Assembly (NCBI RefSeq): GCF_000153405.2
Contig: NC_020802.1
Coordinates: 2,313,883 to 2,377,882 of the forward strand
Source of the DNA: Psychromonas sp. CNPT3
Lineage (GTDB): Bacteria > Pseudomonadota > Gammaproteobacteria > Enterobacterales > Psychromonadaceae
DNA length: 64,000 nt
Reading direction: 5' to 3'
The notes under the pieces were generated by a model. The model was given only the letters and a program-made list of their open reading frames with translations. It searched no databases and was not told the origin of the DNA. A program made the position numbers and the translations under genes. Each line of letters opens with the position of its first letter. Positions within the stretch are counted from its first letter, which is position 1. Below are positions 33,920 to 39,509 of this stretch, piece by piece.

Positions 33920-33944
33920 ATAGGCTTACATCATACCGCCCATA
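33920..33944 (-). repeat. 25-bp copy of the groEL 3' end (attachment-site-like)
   Basis: Identical, in the same orientation, to 39485-39509, which spans the last codons and stop of groEL. On the minus strand it encodes GGMM-stop. The two copies bracket 5,540 bp that contain one large gene. Confidence 0.75.
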
Positions 33945-34049
33945 AGATAACAACAAGCTGATTTAAATGAAATAACATCAAAAACAAAGATCCCCCTTAT
34001 TAAACCCTAGAGTTATCGGTCGCAGTCAAGATAGTTGCACTCTATAATA

Positions 34050-34092
34050 TAAAGTTAAGTACCTCAAAATTATTTTTAGGTACTTAACTTTA
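34050..34092 (-). terminator. hairpin downstream of the STAND NTPase gene
   Basis: A perfect 15-bp inverted repeat (TAAAGTTAAGTACCT on the left arm, 13-nt loop) 25 bp beyond the stop codon, AT-rich with T-rich flank. Likely terminator. Confidence 0.7.
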
Positions 34093-34117
34093 ATACAATC
34101 AACTTTCTATGTTTTAT

Positions 34118-37100
34118 TTATAGAATATTTTCTCTCATTAAGTACCCAGAGACTTCTCCTTGATCAATTAACAAGTCAAGAATTATCAATGTGTTGACCA
34201 TTAATTCAGGAGTACGGCGCACTTTACTTCTTTCTCGATACAGAAACGTTCTCATATAAACTTTGAGGTAATAAATAGTATCATCACTTAAGTCAGATTT
34301 TGATAAAGCACTATTCGTTTTTATAATTTTGGCTATCCAACCTACTCCTTGGGGTAAATATTGACTTCCTATGCCATTTAGTAACATTCCAAATGAATAG
34401 AGAGTTGATGGAGAATTAGAAAGTTTTCCTGCCATTTCATTAAAGAAACGTGAGTTCTTATCTTTTAACGTATGCCAATTTTTCGCATCTTTTTTCCACA
34501 ATGATAGAGCAAACAAATAATTTTTCACTATTTTTTCAAAACGATAGCTTAAGTGTTTCTCCTGAGCCAGCTGAATCACCTTGGGTTTAAATAAATTCCA
34601 AATTAGCCAGAAGTTTTCGTATGAATTTAGCCCATCTTGCGCTCTAACTATTTCTTCTAATAAATCTGCAGCACCTTCTGACAAATTAAACTGCTCTAAC
34701 AGTGGGTTTATAAGCTCAGGAATATAACAAGTTTGTACGGATAATAAGTAACTAGAAAACTTTCTTAAAAAATCATGCCTAGCCTGATAATTATTAGAAT
34801 TCCTTCTGTCATCACCAAAAATAGTATTCACAGACGTATTAATTAAACATTTAAAAGAGTCAAGTACCCACGCTCTTGAATCATTAGGAAGTATATAAAT
34901 TGCCACCGATTTAGTGTGTAAATCAAACGGGGTATAATCAGCCTCACTAAGCTCAACTATATTGTTAATTTCAATGTTTTTTAAAATACTTTCATTCTCT
35001 TCAAATAATCTTTCCCATACCCCAGAAAGGTCAATATTAAACTGTTTACGCTCAGCGCCCTCTTTTCTAATAGTGTCTATAAGCTCAATATAGATAGGAA
35101 ATAAAGTTAAATATCCCCAGTAAATAGCTTGAACATCTTTATCAAAGATGTTCCACAACTCTACTATCGCCACAATGGCAAAAGCATTAAATCTTTGAGA
35201 ACCCATCATAGTTGTAGAGTCTGTCCTCATTAACCCTGCAATGAGCATCACTTTATAAATAGATATATTTTCAGGGGAAATCACGAATAAATCAGAGATA
35301 ACAGTAAAGCATGCATCCATACCATCGCGTATTTGATATCGATAATCATAATTAAAAAGTTGATTTAGACAGTCCTCTATAATTCTCAAACAAAAGCTTA
35401 AGTCATTTTCATCTAATACAGTATGGTAGTATTTTATAAGTGCTGCTGACGCATATATATGTGTGTAGCGGTTAAAAAGCACAAAGTTTTCAGAAGGTGG
35501 GTTTTCTTCATCGGTTAACTTTTCAAAAAGATCTTTTAAGTCAGCTATGACCTGATTTGGATCATATTCATATTGTTCGTATTTTTTACTGTCTTCCTTT
35601 TTATCAATTTTATGGCGCGCCCAAAGACATAGAGGCAAGAACTTGTTATCTTGTTGTTGTTTTTCCTGATGACTTTTAGACATATCTTTGAGATCAGGAT
35701 CTAACTCAGGATTAAAGTAAACCGCAATTTTCCCTTCAACTTCCTCTGTCGTTATGTCCATTTTTCGACTGTCCATCCTAGCCAAACTCATTCGCCATAA
35801 TTTTGAGTTTTTTAAGTCTTTATCAACTTCTAATTCGCCATAATAACTATCCAACAACTCCCATATAGCTTTTTTCCTACGTTGGACTTCAGCCTCATCA
35901 ACACCTTCCTGAGCAAATACTTGATAGCATAAACACTGCTTCTCAAGAGAGTTGGCTCTATGATTAGCATCACACGCCTTAACTCTTTCATTGTGATGCC
36001 ATTGCTCATGTTGAAAGCCACCAGTCATATTTCCTAACATCTCTAGTTGAGCTTTATGCTGGCTATCGAATACTAATCTAGCTGTATCAAATTTAATAAA
36101 CTCTTTAACTTCAAACAATATTTTTGCAACATTAAAAAGCTTAACTTTATTTGCGAGGACAATACTGCTAATAACACCGCATATTGCAGAAGAGTTAGTA
36201 TTCTTCAGCATATATTTAAGCCATGCTTCTAAATTATCGCCTGTAAAATGTTCTACATTTTTTAAGAGAAACTTTTCCAGAGCCATCAATATAGATTTGA
36301 TGAGATTAGGCGTATTACCAGCACCGCGATATGAACTCCATAAGTCTTCGTCTATATAAATTTTATTAGTCCTATCACCTATAGTTAATTCATGTGTGTA
36401 AAACTTATCCTTACCATAGTGATTAACCAAATTTAGGGTAACTTGATTTATAAAGCCCAGTATGAAATCTACAGTTGCTTTTAGACTAAAGCCAAGCAAG
36501 TTAAAAATTGGCGTTTGGAATGCACTTTCAGGGTGATAATTAAAATCATAGCCATCCACAACACCAAATATATTTTCTGCATCTCGGTGCCTTCTAGAAA
36601 AACCATCTGACTGATGGTTTTTTAACCAGCAATAATTTGCAAGTTCCAGCGTTTTTTCCGGTAGAGCTTTTGCTATATACACCCCATCTAGTTTTTTCAA
36701 TATTAATTTTGCAAGATGCTCATAAGGAATGTTCTTCGATTCTTTTTGTAATCCGCATATTTCATCTATTACAAGAGCAAGCTCTGTTTTTATTTCATTT
36801 GCGCCATATGCAATGGTTTTAATTACTGAATCTGTAAATTTTCCACTTCCAATATAGGAATCTTCAGATTCAAGCCATCTATAATATTCAAGGCATAACA
36901 AACTCGCCTTACGAGTAGTTTCTCCTTGTTTTACGGAACTATTCCACTCGTTTAGTACTGAAATAAATGGCTTTAAATTTACTAAACCAATATTATCTTT
37001 TTTATCGAATATGAAGTTTATAAAGGCCGACCAGCCAGCACCTTTAGGTATGGTAAAATAGGTAATATCACTTAGCTTGAGACCTAACCGGTTAAGCTTT

Positions 37101-38878: not shown

Positions 38879-39425
38879 TGATGAATACTTTACTCCTTTT
38901 GGTTGGCTAAAACTATTAAGTCGGTTTGATGTAACTTACAAATAAAAGAATAACGTATAACTTACTAGAGAAACATTAATGGTGGATATATGTAGTAACT
39001 AAGAGGTATCGAACGGTGATTCGGCTTAGCTTTTGTATTAATGATGCTACACACTAAATGAGTGAAAGTAAGTATGACTACTGGAGAATGAGTATCACAA
39101 ACTAATTAGAAAGAGCCTTATAAACGGTTATACGAGAACAATGAGCAGTTTATCTATTTGAACTTTATTGATGCCAATCTTTACAAGCGCACAGATACTT
39201 TCATTTAATTCAACACTGTCTGGTTTTTCTGTTTCCCGGCTATTTCACTGACGTTCAAACATAATCGATGCGTTAAAATTAATTGATAACTCCTCCCTAA
39301 CATAGTCAATATGAGATCTGGCTGTGGGTTATTTTAACGTGAGTTGATTTGTATTTTTAGCTAAAAATTTATCTGTTAACGTTTGATTTGATAGGTTTAT
39401 ATAAAATAATTTAATAAAAAATCAA
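38879..39425. other. 547-bp gap between the NTPase gene and the groEL terminator
   Basis: No intact gene. On the minus strand, between about 39233 and 39127, an open stretch ending ALVKIGINKVQIDKLLIVLV-stop may be the tail of a decayed gene from the inserted element, but it is too short to identify. AAGGAG at about 38894-38899 precedes the NTPase gene. Confidence 0.4.
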
Positions 39426-39460
39426 TAAAAAAGCCCGTAAACACTAAGCTTACGGGCTTT
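39426..39460 (-). terminator. groEL terminator
   Basis: Stem AAGCCCGTAA / TTACGGGCTT with six T on the minus strand, about 30 bp after the groEL stop. A 16-bp palindrome, ACTAGAAAGTTCTAGT, lies between. Confidence 0.9.
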
Positions 39461-39484
39461 ACTAGAAAGTTCTAGTATTTGGCA

Positions 39485-39509
39485 ATAGGCTTACATCATA
39501 CCGCCCATA
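39485..39509 (-). repeat. groEL-end copy of the 25-bp direct repeat
   Basis: Partner of 33920-33944. It covers the last codons, stop codon and six following bases of groEL. Confidence 0.75.

Follow-up and report, generated by a model that had tools for sequence, protein, structure and literature searches.

We analysed a 64,000-nucleotide stretch of the genome of Psychromonas sp. CNPT3 (the window; the genome is G000 in our survey), and our comparisons support the last 18 nucleotides of groEL as an attachment site at which mobile islands recur. Very probably, an island of one tyrosine integrase lineage (family 1, characterized by an Arm-DNA-bind_3 domain) has left a remnant carrying the antiviral gene avs4 directly at this groEL, with an older, decayed island of a second, DUF6538-type lineage lying beyond it.

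The window has groES, groEL, a 7.5-kb interval and gdhB in this order on the minus strand. The groEL reading frame (39491-41131, minus strand; 546 aa) is intact and was matched as a single copy in G000, and gdhB (NAD-glutamate dehydrogenase; 27153-31949, minus strand) is the conserved neighbor that bounds the variable interval. An exact 25-bp direct repeat occurs at 33920-33944 and 39485-39509, its copies 5,565 bp apart in the same orientation; they are identical, as an earlier note on this DNA had claimed, and are the only two in the complete 3.05-Mb genome, even allowing three mismatches. That note had also placed the repeat over the last groEL codons and stop, which is true of the right, groEL-side copy (attL-like, minus strand), which runs 6 nt further and has an 18-nt core, ATGGGCGGTATGATGTAA, on the minus strand at 39491-39508. 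The distal copy, also read on the minus strand, has its core at 33926-33943 and is the putative att site where the avs4 segment adjoins the next remnant. Terminator hairpins stand after groEL (-27.1 kcal/mol, z -5.8) and beyond the left repeat copy (-19.4 kcal/mol, z -6.0). A conserved groEL tail would survive the loss of a second groEL, but it is exceedingly improbable that the left copy is a product of chance or the end of a second, degraded groEL gene, as there are only two copies in the genome, groEL similarity in the 173 nt past the left copy does not exceed chance, and two matches to the first 24 nt of the repeat arose in 0 of 100 dinucleotide shuffles of the window.

Between the copies lies a single long open reading frame (34118-38878, 1586 aa), as had been noted earlier, and the STAND NTPase proposed as its product proves to be an intact, full-length Avs4. 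Residues 13-1586 align with positions 1-1570 of the PADLOC Avs4 profile PDLC02169 (2040 bits) and with residues 1-1587 of EcAvs4 (PDB 8dgf) over its full length (1190 bits). The true start is probably residue 13, at position 38842, making the reading frame 12 residues too long and placing avs4 at 34118-38842 on the minus strand. In the alignment to 8dgf, the P-loop NTPase motifs GKGGVGKT and VLVIDSAEK fall on its equivalent stretches, and Pfam matches to AAA_14 and nSTAND3 both fall under the cut-off. Past the gene lies a strong hairpin, a possible terminator (34050-34092; inverted repeat, -18.9 kcal/mol, z -5.2). The GC content of avs4 is 33%, versus 42% for groEL and 39% for the window, and among the 24 genomes of the genus only the window genome has the gene (0 of the 23 others). 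Across 394 genomes of the order the Avs4 profile found five at E<=1e-100, and within the 1.5 kb of flank examined the gene stands beside a groEL tail in G000 only. Proteins of the Avs4 family bind the phage portal protein and cut DNA, and the window protein probably still functions as a phage sensor. The protein itself is not distinctive among antiviral STAND NTPases of this type; its setting alone is unusual.

We surveyed the same 394 genomes with the 18-nt groEL tail, which codes for MGGMM-stop. The exact tail occurs in 282 of them, and nine have two same-strand copies on one contig, spaced 5,565 bp (G000), 5,704 bp (G005), 19,032 bp (G012), 1,041 bp (G038), 53,023 bp (G056), 3,689 bp (G121), 16,847 bp (G141), 8,580 bp (G147) and 16,892 bp (G374) apart; against these nine forward doubles, the pattern read backwards gave a single match (G283). 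In five of six islands examined, the far copy is identical over 18-20 or 32 nt and ends exactly at the stop codon, and in G141 identity extends 32 nt past the stop. The earlier note had suggested groEL 3' ends as an integration site, and this is borne out by independent islands at the 18-nt tail, two with intact, conserved integrase families; different cargo at the same place, which it had also predicted for other genomes, was found in relatives.

Within the genus, groEL and gdhB lie 138 bp apart in G018 and 570 bp apart in G001; in ten others the gap is 1.9 to about 14 kb and contains mostly unshared genes (gdhB fell within 12 of the 20 stretches fetched from relatives, several others stopping early at a contig end). 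The flank beyond the left repeat copy is common to no near relative, the short gaps of G018 and G001 included, and G009, the closest relative by groEL, has no repeat. Across 302 kb of DNA from the genus lying downstream of groEL, approximate tails with up to three mismatches number eight in sense and two in antisense, so that three-mismatch matches alone are weak evidence; the far tail of G032 has one mismatch. In the groEL-gdhB intervals of G007 and G002 (loci L067 and L069), tail-like sequences with two and one mismatches also follow groEL at 9.2 and 4.6 kb, respectively; similar DNA comes after both, and they are perhaps eroded far ends. A dispersed repeat past groEL in G013 and G021 differs from the groEL tail.

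A tyrosine integrase gene starts about 200 bp after groEL in G012, G141 and G056, and is broken in G374. These family-1 integrases have Phage_integrase, Phage_int_M and Arm-DNA-bind_3 domains, and a profile built from three of them identified nine of the 394 genomes at E<=1e-100, and in all nine the distance from the start of the groEL tail to that of the gene is 232-255 nt; the tail is exact in eight, and the variant tail of G092 was read by eye. In a scan of named genomes, covering at least 79 loci, all seven of the loci at >=65% identity among the matches listed have the tail 234-244 nt upstream, and none of the 72 integrase loci of <=41% identity, among the matches listed and in the DNA examined, has an exact tail. 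The seven are from Psychromonas MB-3u-54, Shewanella hafniensis, Agarivorans Toyoura001, Ca. Endobugula sertula, Shewanella canadensis, an uncultured Pseudomonadales and Psychrosphaera haliotis, two of these contigs being identical with those of G012 and G141. At loci L109 and L110 the frame of the integrase is broken, and a family-1 relic stands beside groEL in G007, a member of the window's genus. No second exact tail was found in the 15-20 kb examined of integrase-bearing G076, G098 and G213. Viral contigs yielded no family-1 relatives among 67 pattern-matching stretches; the best match in phage records is to Stenotrophomonas phage S1 (37% identity) and the best in plasmids to one Legionella adelaidensis record (36%).

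Other arrangements around groEL were seen in passing. By eye, the far copy of G012 resembles the left end of a further island with the start of an integrase, though the profile gave no confirmation of an integrase beyond that copy. On contig 1 of the complete G005 genome (3014098-3054765) a second groEL lies between two further integrase genes, which share about 30% identity with family 1, and this groEL may thus itself be on an island. In G147, a 479-aa reading frame with a Phage_int_SAM_5 match (locus L098, 9763-11202, minus strand) starts 55 nt after groEL, and is perhaps a third recombinase family at the groEL tail.

The groEL-side end of the window segment resembles that of family-1 islands. 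Directly past the groEL stop (39405-39490, minus strand; hairpin at about 39431-39459), these 86 nt are matched at E<1e-10 in only G012, G098, G007, G213 and G009 among the 394 genomes. An intact integrase is present in G012, G098 and G213, a relic in G007, and none was found in G009, which has the same left-end type; the four with an intact or relic integrase span three families, with G213 and G098 outside the window's own. Identity to the S. hafniensis island is 84% (64/76); the score is 78, whereas 500 shuffles reached 15 at most. In our tables of tail and left-end searches the sequence is absent from the other genomes of G213's genus (0 of 28) and G098's genus (0 of 8), which argues that the left end travels with the island. 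Agarivorans genomes without the integrase (G153, G127 and G188) share their relatives' left-end sequence, so that this sequence may be partly the host's own. From these matches we would assign the window's groEL-side end to family-1 islands. The suggestion that the element supplied groEL with a new terminator also finds support, since islands that bear an integrase in two other bacterial families have a matching left end.

No integrase is left in the avs4 segment, as the earlier note had observed. The family-1 profile scores -0.8 there, against a maximum of 0.5 in 60 shuffles and 110 for the G007 relic; neither family's profile found a relic in the segment or beyond the left copy; and single tblastn pieces, a weak look, gave nothing above chance. 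"Island" here therefore means an att-bounded remnant or a non-autonomous cassette. The second of these, if still living, would consist of avs4 between two att sites, moved in trans by the groEL integrases of other elements. The att copies are identical over 25 bp, as expected if they are recent or still in use, and avs4 is intact with no other long gene between them; but no second avs4 lies between groEL tails in the five Avs4-bearing genomes of the 394 (1.5 kb of flank), and G000 itself encodes no near relative of the groEL integrases that could act in trans, the best match being of 25% identity. We consider such a living cassette unlikely, and favor the remnant of a family-1 island.

Beyond the left copy, the 130 nt at 33790-33919 (minus strand; hairpin at about 33828-33869) resemble the left end of a different type of island. 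A search of 293 genomes gave 14 matches at E<=1e-3, and the four best besides the window (G171, G127, G112 and G162) each come directly after a copy of the groEL tail, in G127 a copy 28 kb downstream of groEL and not at groEL itself; their local alignment scores are 56-70, versus shuffle maxima of 26-31. In G171, G112 and G162 an integrase of 416-430 aa with a DUF6538 domain is encoded at the far end, oriented towards groEL. These integrases are 56-67% identical to one another and weakly similar to family 1, and from the end of their reading frame to the far tail is exactly 85 nt in all three. The far tails have one (G171), two (G112) and three (G162) mismatches to the consensus; the constant spacing makes that of G162 credible. 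No match to the DUF6538 integrase was found in phages at E<=1e-40, and the profile found no relic of it beyond the window's left copy. Two observations concern DUF6538 integrases elsewhere. At locus L253 (G112), far tails occur at both 5560 and 8221, 2.7 kb apart with the same 22 nt after each, possibly a second, small unit in series. At locus L065 (G023), a 400-aa DUF6538-like integrase lies in the groEL-gdhB interval of another member of the window's genus, where no groEL tail was found near it.

The left copy is best read as the point where the avs4 segment meets an older, decayed DUF6538-type island, going by the sequence that follows it. The terminator previously noted beyond this copy is a real hairpin, but it need not be the displaced original of groEL; it matches the left end of DUF6538 islands. 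A calcineurin-like phosphoesterase gene (32539-33429, minus strand; Pfam PF00149) may be cargo of this outer remnant; its homologues, at 46-50% identity, are found close to the distal end of the island in both G012 and G056. A repeat of about 160 bp has four copies in the window (33501-33670, 32223-32382, 26970-27129 and, partial, 26602-26697), 90-100% identical to the first, with one distant match (70%) in G010; two copies flank the phosphoesterase gene and two are just beyond gdhB.

An empty site had been expected to join groEL directly to the 33829-33919 sequence with a single repeat copy. A join of groEL to a homologue of that flank does exist, in the distant G112, G171 and G162, but these are not empty sites, being occupied by DUF6538 islands; the genomes compared yielded no strictly empty orthologue of the window's site. 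In Agarivorans, the DNA past the far tail of G056 recurs 2.7 kb after groEL in G153 (89% over 2,180 bp), 1.4 kb after groEL in G188, and past the far tail of the 30.6-kb island of G032; islands there thus sit between groEL and a conserved flank, and no site is strictly empty.

Since both end types match island ends, the groEL-gdhB interval looks like two stacked, decayed islands. We suggest that islands carry a tail matching the last 18 nt of groEL (MGGMM-stop), and that a tyrosine integrase would recombine the two tails: because the incoming tail matches, the groEL protein sequence would be kept, while the gene would gain the island's terminator and a second tail would mark the far end. An island of the Arm-DNA-bind_3 lineage would have entered the window genome at groEL in this way, and the island or a derivative would now be reduced to left end, avs4 and far tail, its integrase lost; beyond the far tail would lie the left end of the older island, of the DUF6538 integrase lineage and also decayed. 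The repeat could also have formed without an integrase, through homologous recombination or gene conversion between groEL ends, or through a swap of cargo between resident tails. With island ends on both flanks and short homology in tail and terminators, a crossover could have swapped the cargo, and in G005, with its two groEL genes, the far copy is followed by a stretch very like the downstream DNA of its own groEL. We hold this to be quite improbable, because unrelated islands have far copies that end at almost or exactly one common nucleotide, five of those examined being identical over 18-20 nt, and two integrase families stand at fixed distances from the tails.

The idea that groEL ends collect defense cargo holds in that several islands carry defense genes. 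We scanned selected proteins with PADLOC, leaving out G121, G147 and G038; as proteins were picked partly for their defense-like appearance, the counts are no test of enrichment. All four proteins scanned in G012 had matches (LmuA and LmuB of Lamassu, and weak LeoA matches to two dynamin-like proteins), as did all four in G374 (type I restriction-modification and PrrC) and all five in G056 (a CARF protein, type I restriction-modification, and a weak match). Matches were found for two of four in G141 (two ThsB-like TIR proteins), one of two in G112 (PDC-S33), one of four in G162 (type IV restriction-like), one of two in G171 (weak) and none of two in G005. The islands of G141 and G374 also encode a TrwC relaxase and a TrwB-like coupling protein, suggesting conjugative transfer with help; neither protein was found in the window segment, which has one long reading frame only.

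Islands in gene 3' ends are a known kind of element. One study describes attB sites in tRNA, tmRNA, intergenic and also protein-coding DNA, with islands often restoring the gene (PMC12884075). Our islands resemble other tyrosine-integrase islands in the 3' ends of housekeeping genes in their gene-end repeat, restored end, varied cargo and, in relatives, an integrase adjoining the target; they differ in having groEL as their target, in its use by two integrase families, and in the lack of an integrase in the window copy. Pathogenicity islands of S. aureus include an integrase family aimed at the ktrB-groL intergenic region, 44' (PMC11217367; PMC8638950). Those islands likewise have an integrase family beside groL, but in a Gram-positive host and at an intergenic site, and are set beside the window by description, not by att or integrase sequence. 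In M. smegmatis, mycobacteriophage Bxb1 inserts into groEL1 and inactivates it (PMC9262239). A groEL gene is the attB in both cases, disrupted by Bxb1 and intact here. The Bxb1 enzyme is a serine integrase. CIMEs are att-bounded remnants of integrative conjugative elements without an integrase of their own. Like them, the avs4 segment has two att sites and cargo, has no recombination genes and is stacked against another element; unlike them, it shows no conjugation genes or mobilization, and only its left end is assigned to an island family.

Among open-licence papers we found no report of groEL as an island site in Gammaproteobacteria, so that one may exist elsewhere; a groEL insertion site was not found in PMC2491623 (where groEL is a typing gene), PMC6360697, PMC10121019, PMC11630473 or PMC12884075. 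Gene-3'-end islands form an established class, to which the window adds a defense-carrying remnant; its target, groEL, is unusual and is shared by two integrase families, and there are precedents for groEL sites in Staphylococcus and Mycobacterium. More speculatively, and with less than even confidence, we propose that in marine Gammaproteobacteria the groEL tail serves as a public docking site where two or more unrelated integrase lineages have converged, each bringing its own replacement terminator and stacking islands in series; the avs4 segment would then be a minimal att-bounded defense cassette, carried along or moved in trans.

The attachment site at the groEL tail gives a new place to hunt for defense genes in marine bacteria, between groEL and the next copy of its tail, and the avs4 segment shows how the decay of a carrier element can leave a defense gene on its own at a fixed location. 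An essential groEL would tolerate repeated insertion because each island restores the end of the gene and supplies a terminator. Two integrase families with a short, near-universal target would, if active, also be useful tools.
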